Positions 2,965-29,072 of a stretch of DNA of 64,000 nucleotides are shown one piece after another. The position numbers and the translations under genes are program-made. The DNA comes from Niastella populi (lineage in GTDB: Bacteria > Bacteroidota > Bacteroidia > Chitinophagales > Chitinophagaceae). Below the pieces are notes generated by a model. That model worked only from the letters and a program-made list of their open reading frames with translations. It did no database searches and was not told where the DNA came from. Within the stretch, counting starts at the first letter, position 1. Each line of letters starts with the position of its first letter. The DNA lies in NCBI RefSeq assembly GCF_002078015.1, contig NZ_LWBP01000188.1, forward strand, positions 248,001 through 312,000, read 5' to 3'.

Positions 2965-4677
2965 ATGAGAATAATCACACTATTGTTATTGCTGAAAAGC
3001 ACCAATCTGGCAGCCCAGTTATTTTCGCCTTCGGGCTATCCCCAGGGATACTTCCGCAACCCGCTCAGTATTCCCATGCGGCTGGCAGGCAATTTTGGCG
3101 AATTGCGGCCCAATCACTATCACATGGGGTTTGATATAAAAACGAACGCCCGTGAAAACCTGCCGGTGTATTCAGCTGCTGATGGTTATATTGGTCGTAT
3201 CAAAATAGAACCCTATGGATTTGGCCGGGCTATATACGTTGTGCATCCCAATGGTTTTACTACGGTATATGCGCATTTGAATGCATTCAACCCTACCCTG
3301 GAAAAATGGGTAAAAGACCAGCAGTACCAGCAACAATCGTGGAAGGTTTTTCTCGAATTAACGCCCGATCTTTTCCCGGTGAAAAAAGGCGACTTTTTGG
3401 CTTATAGTGGAAATACGGGCGGGTCGCAGGCGCCGCACTTGCATTTTGAAGTAAGACGCACGAATGGGGATGTAAATGTGAATCCTTTTTTATTCGGTTT
3501 TCCGGTGGCCGACAATATACCGCCGGTATTGCAGCGGTTGGCGGTGTACGACAGAACCCGTAGCGTTTATGAGCAATCGCCCCGCGTATATCCGGTGCGT
3601 GCGGTTTCCGGTTCGCGCTACCTGCCCTCGCCGTCGGTAATAACCGTTGCTTCGCCGCTGGTGAGCTTTGGCATCGGCGCTTATGATACCCAAACAGGTT
3701 CTCCCAATCATAATGGCATTTTTGAATCGACACTGCTGTTTGACGATGAGCCGGTGGTAGGCTTCAGAATGGATAACATCAGTTACAACGATACCCGCGA
3801 CCTGAATGCCCATATCGATTATAAGACAAAGTCACAGGGTGGCGCTTTTTTGCAGCACCTGTCTGAACTGCCCGGTTATATGAACAGCATTTATAAACGA
3901 AAAAAAGGCGATGGGGTGGTAGATGTAAGCGATGGCGCTGTGCACCAGGTTGCAATTGTGGTTAAGGACGCCAGCGGAAACACCAGTACCCTTAATTATA
4001 AGGTTCAGTATAAGCTCAACGATCGTGGCCAGGAACAGCCTGTGACCTCAGCCAAAAAGTTTTACCCGCTAATGATGGATGGGTACGAAAGTGAGGAATG
4101 CGAATTTTACATTGGCGAGCGCTGTTTGTACGATTCAGTGCATATCCGCTACAATAAAGCCGCCAATACAAACGGACAGGTGGTTTCATCGATACATACA
4201 ATTGGCGCTGCCTATATTCCCCTGCGCGATTCCATGCTGGTGCGTATTCAGCCAAACAGGCCGCTGACCGATGCGGAAAAGTCGCGTACAATTATGCAAT
4301 GGTTTGCCGGTACCAAAAAAGAGATTCAGAAAGTACAATGGCAGGGCAACTGGGCATCGGCCCGGTTCCGTGACCTCGGAAATTTTCAGCTGGTAGTTGA
4401 TGTGGAACCGCCTGCAGTTACCCCGGTTGGTTTTGCCGATGGATCGGATGTAAGCAAGGCCTCGCGCATTGTTTTCACTGTAGCCGATAATTTCGACCGA
4501 ATCAAAAATGTGCGTACCGAACTCGATGGAAAATGGCTGCGGTTCACCAACGATAAGGGCAAAACCTTCGTGTACTATTTTGATGAAAAGTGTATGTCGG
4601 GCCAGCACCGGTTGAAGATCCGTGCTGAAGACGAGGCCGGGAATGTTACTGAAAAAGTATTTGACATAATTCGATAA
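2965..4677 (+). CDS. M23 family metallopeptidase (LytM-type), secreted
   Basis: This is a secreted or periplasmic zinc endopeptidase of the LytM/lysostaphin fold, a family that cuts peptidoglycan cross-links. Starting at ATG 2965 gives 570 aa with a signal peptide ending LAAQ (about residue 18). Zinc and catalytic signatures are present: H53 and D57 in HMGFD, H104 in VYAHL, and H158/H160 in APHLHFE. After the catalytic domain (about 40-180) come roughly 390 residues with Ig-like strands, for example DASGNTSTL and DEAGNVTE near the end. The longer ATG at 2902 adds 21 residues before the signal peptide and is unlikely. The last codons TTCGATAA belong to an octamer repeat. Confidence 0.9.
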   Translation: MRIITLLLLLKSTNLAAQLFSPSGYPQGYFRNPLSIPMRLAGNFGELRPNHYHMGFDIKTNARENLPVYSAADGYIGRIKIEPYGFGRAIYVVHPNGFTTVYAHLNAFNPTLEKWVKDQQYQQQSWKVFLELTPDLFPVKKGDFLAYSGNTGGSQAPHLHFEVRRTNGDVNVNPFLFGFPVADNIPPVLQRLAVYDRTRSVYEQSPRVYPVRAVSGSRYLPSPSVITVASPLVSFGIGAYDTQTGSPNHNGIFESTLLFDDEPVVGFRMDNISYNDTRDLNAHIDYKTKSQGGAFLQHLSELPGYMNSIYKRKKGDGVVDVSDGAVHQVAIVVKDASGNTSTLNYKVQYKLNDRGQEQPVTSAKKFYPLMMDGYESEECEFYIGERCLYDSVHIRYNKAANTNGQVVSSIHTIGAAYIPLRDSMLVRIQPNRPLTDAEKSRTIMQWFAGTKKEIQKVQWQGNWASARFRDLGNFQLVVDVEPPAVTPVGFADGSDVSKASRIVFTVADNFDRIKNVRTELDGKWLRFTNDKGKTFVYYFDEKCMSGQHRLKIRAEDEAGNVTEKVFDIIR

Positions 4678-4760
4678 TCGGTTATTGAAAATAATAGCTG
4701 CCTGATGGGCCAGCCCCAGGGCTTTTTATTATCACATTATCTCATTGGCAAATGAGCTAA
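4670..4760. repeat. Octamer-array element between M23 peptidase and bcp
   Basis: Left arm: TTCGATAA (4670-4677, containing the M23 stop codon), TCGGTTAT, then TGAAAATA. Right arm in 8-base register from 4729: TTATCACA, TTATCTCA, TTGGCAAA, TGAGCTAA. The arms are inverted relative to one another. Between them AGCCCCAGGGCT followed by a T-run (about 4710-4727) may act as a weak terminator. The right arm ends 10 bases before the bcp ATG. Confidence 0.6.
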
Positions 4761-8905: not shown

Positions 8906-9796
8906 ATGACTAAAATAACCAACATACTGCTTACTGCTTTTATCGTTGCAGTGGCAGGCAATACCCTTCAGGCCCAGGATCAGGACCTGTTGCAACTGGT
9001 AAAGGATTCTGCCAACGATACAAAAAAACAATGGTCAACTGCCGCATTTAAATCAACCCGGGTAATAAACGGGCAGTCTATGGAACTGCTGGGCAAAGGA
9101 GTGCTCGATGTGCGGATCCTTCACCGTTTCGGCCTCTTAAGCAACGGCGCCGATAATTTCTTTGGCCTTGATGAAGCCAGTATGCGCATGGGTTTCGATT
9201 ATGGAATAACCGATAATTTAATGATAGGTGTTGGCCGAAGCACGTTGAATAAAGAGCTGGACGCCTTTTTTAAATGGCGCCCTGTGCGGCAGGCCGATGG
9301 CGGCTTTCCCGTTTCGCTGATTTGGATGTCGGGCATTACCGCGCATACAATGAAGTGGGCCGATACAACGCGTAAAAATTATTTTTCTTCGCGGCTGGCG
9401 TATTACAACCAGGTTATCATTGGCCGTAAGTTCAGTAATGCATTCAGTTTGCAGTTAAGCCCCATTTTGGTGCACCGCAACCTGGTTACCAATGCCGATG
9501 ATGAAAACAATACCTGGGCGTTGGGTTTCGGTGCGCGACTGAAGCTTTCAAAACGTACCGCATTCGTAGTAGATTATCATCCCATTCTGGCCGGCCGTGA
9601 ACCGGGAACAAAAGATCCGTTATCAGTTGGGTTCGACATTGAAACCGGCGGTCACGTATTTCAGTTACACTTCAGCAACAGTACCGGTATGAATGAAAAA
9701 GCCTTCCTTACCGGCACAACCGACGATTTCTGGAAGGGCGATATCCGGTTCGGATTTAATTTATCGAGGGTGTTTCAGGTAAGAAAGAAGAAATAA
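8906..9796 (+). CDS. DUF5777 family outer-membrane beta-barrel protein
   Basis: A 296-aa protein with a signal peptide ending LQAQ (about residue 23), followed by alternating amphipathic strands. The stretch RILHRFGLLSNGADNFFGLDEASMRMGFDYG matches my memory of DUF5777 barrels, and the protein ends in an aromatic-containing strand (SRVFQVRKKK). The molecular role of DUF5777 is not established. It is the last gene of the cytochrome-OB-YceI cluster, so a link to periplasmic redox or lipid traffic is possible. The first octamer repeat unit starts at the base after its stop codon. Confidence 0.8.
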   Translation: MTKITNILLTAFIVAVAGNTLQAQDQDLLQLVKDSANDTKKQWSTAAFKSTRVINGQSMELLGKGVLDVRILHRFGLLSNGADNFFGLDEASMRMGFDYGITDNLMIGVGRSTLNKELDAFFKWRPVRQADGGFPVSLIWMSGITAHTMKWADTTRKNYFSSRLAYYNQVIIGRKFSNAFSLQLSPILVHRNLVTNADDENNTWALGFGARLKLSKRTAFVVDYHPILAGREPGTKDPLSVGFDIETGGHVFQLHFSNSTGMNEKAFLTGTTDDFWKGDIRFGFNLSRVFQVRKKK

Positions 9797-9906
9797 TGTG
9801 ATAATGTGATAATTCGATATCGTGATAATGGAAATACAGGGAATTAAAAATCCGGAGCAACGCTCCGGATTTAATTATCGAATTATCACATTATCACATT
9901 ATCGAA
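9797..9906. repeat. Octamer-array element with central hairpin, DUF5777/birA gap
   Basis: Left arm, strict 8-base register from 9797: TGTGATAA, TGTGATAA, TTCGATAT, CGTGATAA, then TGGAAATACAG. Right arm from 9875: TTATCGAA, TTATCACA, TTATCACA, TTATCGAA. The last right-arm unit (9899-9906) contains the birA stop codon. The centre holds a GC-rich terminator hairpin. Both arms are read directly from sequence. Confidence 0.75.
9848..9872. terminator. Bidirectional terminator hairpin between convergent genes
   Basis: AAATCCGGAGC and GCTCCGGATTT are exact reverse complements (11 bp) around an AAC loop, with A/T-rich flanks on both sides, between the convergent DUF5777 and birA genes. Confidence 0.7.
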
Positions 9907-10657
9907 TTACGAATTCCACTTCGCCGAAATCAAATTCCCGTTCCATCACATCCTTTGTCTTCAATCTTCCTGTATCTGTTACGCCGGCAATAGTGGTTTC
10001 AAATGAAATATTTCCTTTTTTGAGGGTAACAGGCTGATGTAATTTGTACAGTACCTGCTGATATTCCTGCATGATGCTTTCTGTTTCGCCCTCCTGCAGC
10101 TGTTGGTAACGGTTTTCGAGGCACTGGCAAAGCTCCCTGCCCAATGCTGCAGCGTCAAAATCGCGGCCGGTGATCTGTTTCAGCGAAACCGGGTTGGGCA
10201 ACGAAGGGTCGAAAACAACCTGGTTCACGTTTATCCCGATACCCACTACGGCATATAGCCAATCTGTGCCGCGAAAAACATTTTCTATTAAAATGCCTCC
10301 TGCCTTTCTGTCACGCCAATACACATCATTGGGCCATTTGATACAGGTTTCATCCCCGGCATATTTTTTATAAAAGTCATAACAGGCGAGGGCTGCTGTT
10401 GCAGAAAGCCAGAACTGGCGGGTGGGTAATAAACCGGGTATAACAACAGTACTGAACATTATGTTAAGATTAGGTGTTGTTATCCAGCTTTTTCCCCGCT
10501 GGCCTTTACCGGCTGTTTGCTCAAGGGCAAACCAGGTGGCACCATGAGTTGCCAATCCGGCTTGTATTTGCCGCATGGCATAGTTGTTGGTGCTGTCTAC
10601 TGTTGGTAATATTATATAAGGATGACCAATGGGTGCCCGTTTACCAGGATGTGCCAA
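9899..10657 (-). CDS. birA: Biotin--[acetyl-CoA-carboxylase] ligase
   Basis: BirA activates biotin with ATP and attaches it to the carboxyl-carrier protein of acetyl-CoA carboxylase. The 252-aa protein lacks the DNA-binding N-terminus of the E. coli repressor form. Catalytic signatures are the STNNYAM start, the adenylate loop AGKGQRGKSW (about 49-58), KWPNDVYW and KAGGILIE. The only reasonable start in frame is TTG at 10657, because the conserved PTVDSTNN block comes soon after; this start is somewhat uncertain. It is divergent from rsfS, a gene order I recall from other Bacteroidota. Its last codons overlap an octamer repeat. Confidence 0.92.
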   Translation of the reverse strand: MAHPGKRAPIGHPYIILPTVDSTNNYAMRQIQAGLATHGATWFALEQTAGKGQRGKSWITTPNLNIMFSTVVIPGLLPTRQFWLSATAALACYDFYKKYAGDETCIKWPNDVYWRDRKAGGILIENVFRGTDWLYAVVGIGINVNQVVFDPSLPNPVSLKQITGRDFDAAALGRELCQCLENRYQQLQEGETESIMQEYQQVLYKLHQPVTLKKGNISFETTIAGVTDTGRLKTKDVMEREFDFGEVEFVIR

Positions 10658-14528: not shown

Positions 14529-14570
14529 TGAGATAATTGGATAATCAGATAATTTGATAATGAAATACAG
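14529..14570. repeat. Octamer half-array
   Basis: In strict 8-base register: TGAGATAA (14529-14536), TTGGATAA, TCAGATAA, TTTGATAA (to 14560), then TGAAATACAG (14561-14570). This matches the left arms at 9797 and 27724. No inverted octamer arm follows; a heptamer array lies downstream instead. Confidence 0.65.
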
Positions 14571-21214: not shown

Positions 21215-21502
21215 TGGGCTGATTTGCTAATTAGCTAATGTGCTAATGAAAAGGAATGATTTTCGTTAGCACATTTCTTTTTTTTGAGAATGTGAATATG
21301 AAAATGTGTTTAATGATTCAGTGTGTTGGTTAGTCAATGTTCAAACGAATTATAATTTGTGTATTCATAGCACATTTACTTATATGTACATTTACTACTC
21401 ATTGTAAAGAAAGCTTCCGTACTTTGCGCGGGAAACTGACCAAAGTCATTTGCATATTAGCATTACTTGTCCCGGCTAAGTCGGGATTATCACATTAGCA
21501 CA
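21215..21502. repeat. Octamer-array element downstream of gyrB
   Basis: Left arm in 8-base register from 21215: TGGGCTGA, TTTGCTAA, TTAGCTAA, TGTGCTAA, then TGAAAAGG. Inverted units are TTAGCACA (21266-21273) and TTATCACA plus TTAGCACA (21487-21502). This copy uses the word TNNGCTAA instead of TNNGATAA. Confidence 0.6.
21237..21284 (+). terminator. gyrB terminator built from repeat units
   Basis: AATGTGCTAA (21237-21246) pairs with TTAGCACATT (21266-21275) and is followed by C plus a run of eight or more T. The stem arms coincide with octamer units. Confidence 0.6.
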
Positions 21503-26418: not shown

Positions 26419-27690
26419 TTAGTTTATCTGTTGTGCGCCGAAGTAACTGTGAAGTACAGCCGGTAATTCAATCCCGTTCGCGGTTTGATGGTTTTCGAGC
26501 AAACAGGCAACTATTCTTGGTAATGCAAGCGAGCTTCCGTTCAATGAATGCACAAGTTGGTTTTTACCATTGGCATCTTTAAACCGTATTTTCATGCGGT
26601 TGGTTTGGTATGCTTCGAAGTTCGATACGGAACTTACCTCGAGCCATTTTTGCTGAGCGGCGCTCCATACTTCAAAATCGTAGGTAAGTGCAGATGCGAA
26701 TCCCATATCGCCGCCGCATAATTTCAAAATGCGGTAGGGGAGGTTCAATGTGTTCAGCAGTTTCTCTACATGGTTCACCATTTCTTCCAGCACTTCATAG
26801 CTTTTATCGGGGTGAACGATCTGTACTATTTCCACTTTGTCGAACTGGTGAAGGCGGTTCAGGCCACGTACGTCTTTACCATAGCTGCCCGCCTCACGCC
26901 GAAAACAGGGAGTATATGCCGTCATCTTAACCGGCAGATCGGCTTCTTTCAATAATTCGTCGCGATAAATGTTCGTTACCGGAACTTCGGCTGTTGGTAT
27001 CAGGTAAAAGTTGTCTTCGGTAACAAAATACATTTGTCCTTCCTTATCGGGTAACTGACCGGTACCGAAGGCCGATGCTTCGTTCACCATATGCGGCGGT
27101 ATAAATTCGGTATAACCGGCATTGGTATTGAAATCGAGAAAATACTGAATAAGCGCCCGTTGCAATTTGGCGCCTTTACCAATATATACGGGAAAACCGC
27201 TTCCGGTGATCTTATTTCCCAGCTCGAAATCGATGAGGTTGTATTTTTTTGTGAGGTTCCAGTGCGGTACCGCACCGGCGTGCAGGGTTGGTTTATTACC
27301 GCCTTCACGAATGGTGATATTGTCCTCTGGTGTTTTGCCCGGGGGCACTTTATCAGATGGCAGGTTAGGCAGCTTTACGATCTGCTCCTGTAATTTTTTT
27401 TCCGTTGCCGCCAGCTGATCGGCGATCGGTTGTAAAGTTGTTTTTAAAGAAGCAACCTCCAGTTTTGCGGTTTCGGCCGCTTCTTTCTGGCCTTTGGCCA
27501 TCAATTGCCCGATTTCTTTGGATGCTGCATTTACTTTTGACTGGGTAGTATCAAATTCAAGCTGCAACTTTTTACGGGCGTCGTCAAGGGATATGAGCTC
27601 ATCTACCAATGCTATTTCCCCGAAATTCTTTAAAGCCAGTCGTTCCTTTACCAGTGCTGTGTTTTGTCGAATAAATGCGATCTGTAACAT
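26419..27690 (-). CDS. serS: Seryl-tRNA synthetase
   Basis: SerS charges tRNA-Ser with serine. The 423-aa protein has the N-terminal antiparallel coiled-coil arm that contacts the tRNA long variable arm (about 30-110), then the class II catalytic core. Visible blocks are FIPPHMVNEASAFGTGQLPDKEGQMYF, TAEVPVTNIYRDE, motif 2 CFRREAGSYGKDVRGLNRLHQFDKVEIV and motif 3 with NGSSLALPRIVACLLENHQ. The length is normal. It is monocistronic, with a -7 box close upstream and its own terminator. Confidence 0.98.
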   Translation of the reverse strand: MLQIAFIRQNTALVKERLALKNFGEIALVDELISLDDARKKLQLEFDTTQSKVNAASKEIGQLMAKGQKEAAETAKLEVASLKTTLQPIADQLAATEKKLQEQIVKLPNLPSDKVPPGKTPEDNITIREGGNKPTLHAGAVPHWNLTKKYNLIDFELGNKITGSGFPVYIGKGAKLQRALIQYFLDFNTNAGYTEFIPPHMVNEASAFGTGQLPDKEGQMYFVTEDNFYLIPTAEVPVTNIYRDELLKEADLPVKMTAYTPCFRREAGSYGKDVRGLNRLHQFDKVEIVQIVHPDKSYEVLEEMVNHVEKLLNTLNLPYRILKLCGGDMGFASALTYDFEVWSAAQQKWLEVSSVSNFEAYQTNRMKIRFKDANGKNQLVHSLNGSSLALPRIVACLLENHQTANGIELPAVLHSYFGAQQIN

Positions 27691-27708
27691 GTGAAATCAG
27701 GTTTGCGG

Positions 27709-27716
27709 CAAAAATA
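27709..27716 (-). promoter_or_regulatory. Candidate -7 box for serS
   Basis: Minus-strand TATTTTTG matches TAnnTTTG 18 bases upstream of the serS ATG, giving a short leader. Confidence 0.4.
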
Positions 27717-27723
27717 ATACTAA

Positions 27724-27852
27724 TTAGTTAATGTGATAATTCGATAATTCGGTACTGAAATACAGCTTCAATGCCCGGGGTATGCGCGTGTTGGCGTGAT
27801 TTCCGAAATTCAGACGCCAATTATCACATTATCGAATTATCACATTATCACA
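27724..27852. repeat. Octamer-array element between serS and the 114-aa gene
   Basis: Left arm in 8-base register from 27724: TTAGTTAA, TGTGATAA, TTCGATAA, TTCGGTAC, then TGAAATACAG. Right arm from 27821: TTATCACA, TTATCGAA, TTATCACA, TTATCACA. The central 55 bases are unrelated to the other copies. The right arm runs into TAATTTTG (27854-27861), a -7-like box 4 bases before the next ATG. Confidence 0.75.
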
Positions 27853-27865
27853 TTAATTTTGCACT

Positions 27866-28210
27866 ATGCAAGCAAATGACGATTTACAAAGCCGTTGGTG
27901 GAAGCTGGAAGAAAAGCTGATTGAACGGTTTGGCAGGAAACCAGATATGGAAACCATATTATTCTTAATAGGTATACAGGAGTTCGGCGATATAAAAGCA
28001 AAGTTCAGCAAGGAGCAAAAGCAGGATCTTATGCATATTGCTACCTGTTCGCTGCTGGCGCAAAGCGGTTTTTACGAACTGGAAGGAGTAGATGAAGAAG
28101 GCTGGCCGCACTTCAGGCAGTTGAAAGCCCTGCCGGTGATGAACCTGCACGAACAGGAGAATTTTTTGAAAGATCATATTCTGCTGTATTTCGATCAACA
28201 GGAGTTTTAA
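27866..28210 (+). CDS. 114-aa cytosolic protein, unknown function
   Basis: A soluble, helical, acidic protein starting MQANDDLQSRWWKLEEKL. The middle (PDMETILFLIGIQEFG and KFSKEQKQDLMHIATCSLLAQSGFYELEG) looks conserved in style. I recall similar proteins from other Bacteroidota, but I have no family name and no function. It is flanked on both sides by octamer-array elements, and the right arm of the upstream one ends directly at its start, so its transcription may depend on the repeat. Confidence 0.75.
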   Translation: MQANDDLQSRWWKLEEKLIERFGRKPDMETILFLIGIQEFGDIKAKFSKEQKQDLMHIATCSLLAQSGFYELEGVDEEGWPHFRQLKALPVMNLHEQENFLKDHILLYFDQQEF

Positions 28211-28215
28211 ACCAA

Positions 28216-28374
28216 TGTGATAATTCGATAATGAGATGATTCGATAATGGAAGCCTGAAACTGGGCCGGGTTCATATATACGTAAACCTCATTATCATTC
28301 GTTTTATGTAAGATTGCCGGGATGGCTGCATTAATTATCACATTATCGAATTATCACAATATCACATTATCATA
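28216..28374. repeat. Octamer-array element between the 114-aa gene and the cyclophilin gene
   Basis: Left arm in 8-base register from 28216: TGTGATAA, TTCGATAA, TGAGATGA, TTCGATAA, then TGGAAGCCTG. Right arm from 28335: TTATCACA, TTATCGAA, TTATCACA, ATATCACA, TTATCATA. The central 80 bases differ from the copy at 27724. The arm ends 8 bases before the next ATG. Confidence 0.75.
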
Positions 28375-28382
28375 TTAACACT

Positions 28383-29072
28383 ATGAATAAACTACTCCTC
28401 TTTCTCGCTTTTGTAATTCTTGTGTCATCCTATAGCACCGATCCACCCTACCAGGTAAAAAAGGGCGACCTTAACAAAGATGTGGAACTGGTGACCTCAA
28501 AGGGTACTCTGGTAATAAGGTTATCAGATTCTACCCCAAAACATCGCGACAACTTCATAAAACTTGTTAACAGGCATTTTTACGATGGTTTGTTGTTTCA
28601 CCGAGTTATGAGCCAGTTCATGATACAAACCGGCGACCCCAAAAGTAAAACCGCCAAACCTGGCGAGGCATTGGGGCAGGGCAGTCCCGGTTATACGATC
28701 CCCGCCGAAATGCGTCCCTACTTATTCCATAAAAAAGGAGCGTTGGCGGCCGCCCGTACGCCCGACGAGGTAAACCCTACGCGTGAAAGCAATGGCAGCC
28801 AGTTTTACCTGGTACATGGAAGGGTTTATGACGATAATGACCTGAACCACGTTGAAGCCCGGTTAAACGGCTATAAGATCCCGGCAGCCCATCGCGAAGT
28901 GTATAAAACCCTTGGCGGTACGCCTTCGCTCGATCAGAAGTATACGATATTTGGCGAAGTGATAAAAGGGTTGGATGTAATTGATAGTATAGCCGCCGTT
29001 ACCACCGGCGAGCGTAACCGTCCCGATGTGGATGTGAAGATCATTAAGGCTTCCCTTATTAAAAGGCAATGA
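28383..29072 (+). CDS. Cyclophilin-type peptidyl-prolyl cis-trans isomerase
   Basis: A 229-aa exported PPIase that speeds proline isomerisation during folding of envelope proteins. The N-terminal signal MNKLLLFLAFVILVSSYS is followed by the cyclophilin core. Core blocks are KLVNRHFYDGLLFHRV, FMIQTGDP and NGSQFYLVHG; catalytic arginine is in FHRV. There is an insertion (about 140-180) between QFYLV and the FGEV strand, which is common in Bacteroidota versions. No lipobox cysteine is visible in the leader, so it is probably soluble in the periplasm. Confidence 0.9.
   Translation: MNKLLLFLAFVILVSSYSTDPPYQVKKGDLNKDVELVTSKGTLVIRLSDSTPKHRDNFIKLVNRHFYDGLLFHRVMSQFMIQTGDPKSKTAKPGEALGQGSPGYTIPAEMRPYLFHKKGALAAARTPDEVNPTRESNGSQFYLVHGRVYDDNDLNHVEARLNGYKIPAAHREVYKTLGGTPSLDQKYTIFGEVIKGLDVIDSIAAVTTGERNRPDVDVKIIKASLIKRQ

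Follow-up and report, generated by a model that had tools for sequence, protein, structure and literature searches.

An inverted pair of degenerate octamer arrays lying between two convergent genes of Niastella populi is confirmed as a real feature and as one among hundreds of copies in the genome, and its best reading is that of an oriented recognition array, read as DNA and spread as a repeat. We give a probability of about 0.4 to the more specific proposal that each pair of arms is an oriented, two-sided border element read by a protein, for which we infer both the protein reader and the border action. The element was found in the window, i.e., the whole stretch of 64,000 nucleotides that was analysed (C187:248001-312000), which belongs to a genome of 8,612,588 bases in 263 contigs. 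Its parts and flanking genes are the following:

8906..9796, plus strand: gene for a DUF5777 beta-barrel protein (PF19089), whose stop codon (9794-9796) abuts the left arm
9797..9828, plus strand: left octamer arm with the units TGTGATAA TGTGATAA TTCGATAT CGTGATAA, two perfect and two with one mismatch
9829..9839, plus strand: inner border motif TGGAAATACAG, with one extra A compared with the family consensus
9848..9872, no strand: 11-bp terminator-like hairpin, A/T-rich on both sides, from the fold of 9797-9906
9875..9906, minus strand: right octamer arm with the minus-strand units TTCGATAA TGTGATAA TGTGATAA TTCGATAA, all four perfect
9899..10657, minus strand: gene for a birA-like biotin protein ligase (PF03099), which ends inside the right arm with its stop in the outermost unit

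Both flanking genes carry the Pfam matches given above, and the closest named relatives of the DUF5777 gene come from Niastella and Longitalea. The sequence-only reading had described four octamers facing four inverted ones in strict 8-base register; the register holds and the right arm is perfect, while the third and fourth units of the left arm each break the pattern by one base. The hairpin that it had placed between the arms was recovered by folding, and the gene borders lie where it had put them, the left array starting one base past the DUF5777 stop and the birA stop falling inside the last right-arm unit. A consensus terminator scan of 9700-10000 returned a single site at 9743-9755, inside the gene, and the hairpin was absent from its list; a plasmid search of 9700-10100 gave no match. 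Two Rfam candidates at 9786-9961, MIR7504 and GcvB, were both far below their gathering scores and were taken as chance matches arising from the strong palindrome.

Genome-wide number and 8-base register, by which the sequence-only reading had proposed to judge the repeat, both exceed chance. With exact matching, the dimer TNNGATAATNNGATAA has 383 copies in the 8.6-Mb genome (203 forward, 180 reverse) versus 2 (2+0) for the reversed-pattern control, and exact trimers number 170 (96+74) versus 0. In an 864-kb sample (the genome samples are mostly stretches picked for listed hits, plus one 400-kb block of C1, and are unsuited to densities), same-strand GATAA-GATAA distances were counted 118 times at 8, 70 times at 16 and 39 times at 24 bases, compared with 1-17 times at each of the other distances from 5 to 60; the count is down to 9 at distance 32 because array length is near four units. 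Three first-order Markov resamplings of intergenic DNA yielded zero arrays at any period from 5 to 15. The view that this is a unit rather than AT-rich drift is borne out by the fixed register, the split into fixed and free positions, the genome-wide recurrence and, in most orthologous arrays, the slower change of the fixed positions described below.

Among 71 arrays with at least three units, the bases at positions 1-4 are T (96%), G or T (52% and 41%), T (64%) and G (99%), and those at positions 5-8 are A or C (68% and 29%), T (99%), A (95%) and A (97%), which gives TKNG[A/C]TAA as the fuller unit. Positions 2 and 3, claimed earlier to be the only free ones, do both vary, but G and T make up most of position 2, position 5 alternates between A and C, and position 6 between T and A in relatives. 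Most of the 82 arrays counted are short, with four units in 37, three in 16, five in 16, two in 11, and six and seven in one each. The borders are fixed as well: on the outer side the unit-like pattern ends at YAA, with A in 80% at -2 and 86% at -1 and T or C in 67% at -3, and the inner border has the consensus TGRAATACAG. The 14-base junction GMTAATGRAATACA is present 87 times in the genome (44+43) versus 0 for its reversed form, and GAATACAG has about 8 times the density between genes that it has within them (3.08 vs 0.38 per 10 kb). In the intergenic DNA of this genome, AATACAG words are also found separating arrays of other word families, and GAATACAG and AAATACAG look like punctuation there.

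Regarding placement, 80 arrays had called neighbours, with gene positions from our own hexamer-based caller rather than from curated annotation and with starts less certain than stops. On their outer side, 53 of them have the end of a same-strand gene and 27 a gene start, the latter counting against a border reading, and 45 of the 53 arrays behind a same-strand gene start within -24 to +11 bp of its stop. From the gene edges the arrays are oriented inward, into the spacer. They are distributed over convergent (25), tandem (48) and divergent (7) spacers, of which the sample holds 94, 317 and 103 longer than 40 bp, and are commoner in convergent than in divergent spacers. An inverted partner dimer, counted when it lies ahead of the array by at most 350 bp with no gene in between, accompanies 46 of the 80 arrays versus 4.65 in Markov resamplings, and a direct partner dimer 17 of the 80. 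The description of the arrays as lying around a terminator holds only locally: facing arrays enclose terminators as well as other sequence, and they also occur in divergent spacers, where there is no gene end. The other arrays of the window are these:

4729..4760, minus strand: octamer array, whose degenerate left partner overlaps the end of gene 2989-4677
14529..14560, plus strand: octamer array beginning 1 bp past a stop
21215..21246, plus strand: octamer array of the GCTAA type, whose innermost unit is an intrinsic terminator stem
21487..21502, minus strand: right partner of 21215-21246, adjoining a REP-like hairpin
27724..27747, plus strand: left arm in a divergent spacer, paired with 27821..27852
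27821..27852, minus strand: right arm in the same divergent spacer, paired with 27724..27747
28216..28247, plus strand: left arm in a tandem spacer, 5 bp past a stop
28335..28374, minus strand: right arm in the same tandem spacer, paired with 28216..28247

Some of these loci have further traits. In the spacer at 27690-27866, inspection by eye places the end of the right arm, in several species, beside what we take to be a TAnnTTTG-like box. The orthologues of this spacer in N. koreensis, N. soli and N. yeongjuensis contain several hundred additional bases, which may represent a small gene and which in N. koreensis lie between two array pairs. In several species a REP-like hairpin (CCCGNNNNNCGGGACAAGT and relatives) is found next to octamer units or separating them, which gives the impression that it targets the array (L104 4892-4919, window 21465-21486, and samples C1, C145 and C78); its exact core has only 4 copies in the genome.

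The octamers might simply supply stop codons in all three frames behind a gene, as a safety net. Octamer arrays at stops do contain 16.4 stop triplets per 100 nt when read outward versus 5.3 inward; however, octamer arms at gene starts are equally biased (16.6 vs 5.4), and other word families at stops are nearly unbiased (6.6 vs 5.5; 7.7 vs 7.5). This explanation was rejected on account of the start-side arms and the other word families, neither of which it fits, and we regard it as very improbable indeed.

The arms could alternatively work in RNA, forming a long stem alone or together with the inner hairpin and serving as a bidirectional terminator or a 3'-end protector. The 110-nt element of the window does fold strongly (-46.8 kcal/mol, z -9.8) with 23 inter-arm pairs. 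At the 21207 locus, moreover, the innermost unit is a terminator stem; together with the border it forms a hairpin stem in 9/9 species, followed by a T-rich tail in eight (by eye), and in three species the units in both strands of the stem are T/A-swapped with pairing kept. The rest of the array varies there, G001 having a REP-like hairpin that replaces all but the innermost unit. Against this, native arms pair no better than swapped ones, either for 18 pairs from this genome (-20.80 vs -19.71 kcal/mol, p 0.24) or for 36 pairs from six genomes (p 0.24), and two arms that share a spacer resemble each other no more than swapped ones do. The correlation between arms in the choice of A or C at position 5 was r 0.39 (p 0.063). 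An arm-to-arm hairpin thus found no support in swapped-arm energies or in unit mirroring (p 0.715). A terminator built from the innermost unit was likewise dismissed, as only 2/80 arrays pass a simple test for a stem and a T-rich tail, and the 7 arrays in divergent spacers are a further misfit, so that a device acting in RNA appears improbable to us. Since the arms are not tuned to pair and the stop-codon account does not fit, whatever reads the arrays would recognise the word and its orientation in DNA, and not a hairpin or stop codons.

We then consider how the arrays are distributed. Ten genomes of the genus group were compared, namely the window genome (G000), G001, Niastella sp. OAS944 (G002), N. 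caeni (G003), N. soli (G004), N. koreensis GR20-10 (G005), Longitalea arenae (G006), L. luteola (G007), G008 and N. yeongjuensis (G009). In this order they contain 350, 26, 363, 49, 0, 221, 285, 364, 0 and 0 TNNGMTAA trimers, so that 7/10 match, the zero of G008 coming from a genome that is 61% complete. TNNGMAAA trimers match in 9/10 of these genomes, with the highest number (92) in N. caeni. In the family, 146/294 genomes match TNNGMWAA trimers and 26/294 have at least 20, low counts being near noise as the reversed control matches in 19/294; one family genome, G191, gave 48+32 matches to the reversed control, and another octamer family may abound there. A phylum sample matched in 50/395 genomes, and among 20 loci from hits in three genomes of another order of the same class, which we take to be Flavobacterium, inward pairs were seen by eye in about half. 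Judged by such matches, related octamer arrays recur across the family and in other orders of the class.

Presence, absence and replacement can be followed at single sites. In a syntenic block of nine genomes, seven species have a spacer of only 17-27 bases past gene 2989-4677, its stop and start codons counted in, and the window genome and L. luteola have arrays there; in these two, the last codons of the gene (window 4660-4680) differ in a manner compatible with the array, the protein terminating in ..DIIR and ..TVIR versus ..NFTR in the seven, with its length unchanged, as if an array had overwritten the end of the gene twice. The spacer at 28210-28383 has 41 bases in N. yeongjuensis and 32 in N. 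soli (codons included), and octamer units in the six others with data. Past 14527, the window genome, G002 and L. luteola carry octamer arrays; in L. arenae a REP-like hairpin interrupts the octamer units, and a different word family is present in N. caeni, N. koreensis and N. yeongjuensis. Two pairs of genomes were compared, the window genome with G002 (A-B) and L. luteola with L. arenae (C-D); octamer arrays occupy 7 of 143 (A-B) and 5 of 121 (C-D) orthologous spacers in both species, and five spacers in each comparison in one species only.

These patterns bring in the main rival, according to which the arrays are the ends of selfish, non-autonomous inverted repeats of BIME/MITE type; these ends would be recognised by a transposase acting in trans, and the elements would land in short spacers and simply be tolerated by the host. 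It would account for trimer counts that swing from 0 to 364 among the ten genomes, for six cases in which a spacer of 12-39 bp in one species corresponds to 84-223 bp with octamer arrays in its sister, for the shared 14-base junction, and for near copies of whole elements in sister word families (e.g., 89% over 152 bp). On the other hand, the three near-copy pairs that were aligned belong to those other families and not to octamer elements, no clear target duplication was seen in the orthologous loci compared by eye, and filled spacers often replace the whole gap. A Y1 (IS200/REP-type) transposase was discarded as the mover, as PF01797 gives 1-3 matches in each of the 10 genomes, including those without arrays, and is unlinked to array number. 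Neutral relics, finally, should not keep fixed positions. We consider it possible, if on the doubtful side, that the arrays are selfish repeats; BIME/MITE-like dispersal to new spacers is likely in itself, and as spread and later use are compatible, the protein-read border and the selfish repeat can both be true.

The orthologous arrays were furthermore used to compare fixed and free positions, counting only arrays with a homologous interior (10, 3, 8 and 3 being left out for A-B, B-A, C-D and D-C) and skipping interiors <40 nt and spacers >700 bp. Fixed positions differ in 9/120 (A-B), 6/135 (B-A), 5/70 (C-D) and 14/55 (D-C) cases, and free positions in 33/72, 33/82, 17/42 and 5/33, respectively; the A-B and B-A figures come largely from the same loci and cannot be taken as independent. 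In three of the four directions fixed positions thus differ by 4-8% and free ones by 40-46%, while D-C gives 25% and 15%; there, one of the three arrays lacks a counterpart and contributes 10/15 fixed and 0/9 free differences, which leaves 4/40 and 5/24 for the remaining two. Single arms without the contrast exist (e.g., AB 66 minus: fixed 3/15, free 0/9), and AB 73 minus has no values (40 gapped positions), as a gene start was called early in the relative. As fourfold sites differ by 0.437 (A-B) and 0.381 (C-D), and interiors by 19-26%, the free positions move about like silent sites and the fixed ones more slowly. The array finder needs two adjacent consensus units, a requirement that favours low fixed-position change and that was relaxed in the second species alone. 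Units drawn at random from the A-B genomes differ by 57% at free and 9% at fixed positions, not far from the orthologous values. The pattern looked for in an array of binding sites, with some bases constrained and others free, is therefore seen in three of four directions, subject to this detection bias and to the D-C exception. Selection would be the simplest reading of the slow fixed positions, although concerted copying from other arrays could mimic it.

The arrays might instead be microsatellites, built by 8-bp replication slippage and degraded by drift. Short-period repeats, heptamers most of all, are common in some prokaryotes (Mrazek, 2007, as cited in PMC4679880), one array (sample C78) has a 24-bp higher-order repeat, and detected unit counts are equal in only 4/9 A-B and 2/5 C-D arms and differ in the others. 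Nevertheless, 19/21 orthologous array alignments are gap-free inside the array (with an aligner that penalises gaps), and hundreds of loci share these words, with borders that are fixed. Neighbouring units are moreover less often identical than in within-array shuffles, with 0.092 vs 0.131 in the window genome (p 0.01) and 0.038 vs 0.114 in G002 (p 0.004), the effect being weaker in L. luteola (p 0.088) and L. arenae (p 0.505). Units less alike than shuffled ones fit poorly with 8-bp slippage, which we consider quite improbable as the origin of the arrays.

The octamer is accompanied by other degenerate families of period 7 or 8 with a like layout, such as GTTTGTG, GGTGAAT, AAGCTGC, GAGTTAAC and GTTATTCA in the 864-kb sample. 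This sample contains 102 intergenic arrays of period 7 (7 more being genic) and 93 of period 8 (none genic), and zero of periods 5, 10 and 13. Of the other-family arrays nearest a stop, 63/98 lie within 12 bp of it (39/63 for period 7 and 24/35 for period 8), several of these families form inward-facing pairs, and related elements of sister families occupy three neighbouring convergent spacers. One reader protein for each word family is implausible, which counts against the protein-read border, as does the finding that different species carry different word families at one site, the 14527 locus. A bolder reading is a border code shared across a class of Bacteroidota, in which degenerate 8-mer and sister 7-mer arrays, interchangeable at a given site, would be read by a one-directional DNA reader, mark the two edges of a spacer and keep neighbouring transcription units apart; at present we think this unlikely.

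Cyanobacterial STRR are degenerate heptamer arrays, and the heptanucleotide repeats of the Nostoc tRNA-Leu intron have the consensus TDNGATT. No description of the present octamer was found in the open-licence full-text literature, which agrees in part with the earlier statement that no such Bacteroidota repeat had been described; heptamer arrays of TAACTGA, however, have been published as direct repeats in Beggiatoaceae, Cyanobacteria and five Bacteroidetes (MacGregor, 2015; PMC4679880). In the Guaymas filament, according to the same paper, TAACTGA sets are mostly placed directly upstream of start codons, and single-base variants seldom occur as repeats. The octamers resemble TAACTGA and STRR repeats in that they are tandem arrays of short words of constant length, lie between genes and close to gene edges at many loci (93/93 period-8 and 102/109 period-7 arrays are intergenic here), are patchy among relatives and are sometimes mixed with other words; for the published repeats, too, a binding protein has been proposed (PMC4679880). 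They differ from them in unit length, free positions, fixed borders, about four units per array, inward-facing paired arms and a placement mainly at stops, and the consensus TKNG[A/C]TAA differs from TAACTGA, the one published STRR-type word compared. With the Nostoc intron repeats (PMC3488679) they share degenerate short units, variable copy number and hairpin pairing, but those are confined to one intron and paired in RNA, whereas here there are hundreds of copies whose arms are not mutually tuned. The BrickBuilt MITE of Porphyromonas gingivalis (PMC4596501) is also an intergenic Bacteroidota element with tandem repeats and inverted ends, yet it has a central tandem 23-nt unit and small inverted ends, whereas here the inverted arms are the degenerate arrays themselves. 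REP/BIME elements similarly occur as many small palindromic intergenic copies, though as single palindromes of 20-40 bp (PMC3733652), in contrast to tandem 8-mers with a separate REP-like hairpin between units at some loci. The closest known kinds are therefore degenerate heptamer arrays (STRR, TAACTGA) and BIME/MITE-like elements.

With the key letters held over evolution and the others drifting, something probably reads the arrays. In the protein-read border that we prefer, an arm would consist of some four recognition sites, TKNG[A/C]TAA, all in one orientation and at a pitch of 8 bp, spanning about 32 bp or three helical turns, and the reader of this DNA sequence would most likely be a protein; we know of no binding protein for these octamer arrays. 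Arms at gene borders that point into the spacer would turn a two-armed spacer into a two-sided border element, which at 9797-9906 would mark the border between two convergent genes around a terminator-like hairpin, and we surmise that the border might act, for instance, as an orientation-specific roadblock to transcription leaving the gene. Degenerate arrays of 7-8-base units are on record from several groups of bacteria, with no generally accepted function. With hundreds of copies, relatives with and without arrays, a split into fixed and free positions and a rule of orientation, the choice between function, selfish DNA and slippage becomes directly testable in this genus group, the more so as its named relatives include N. 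koreensis, for which a complete genome is at hand.
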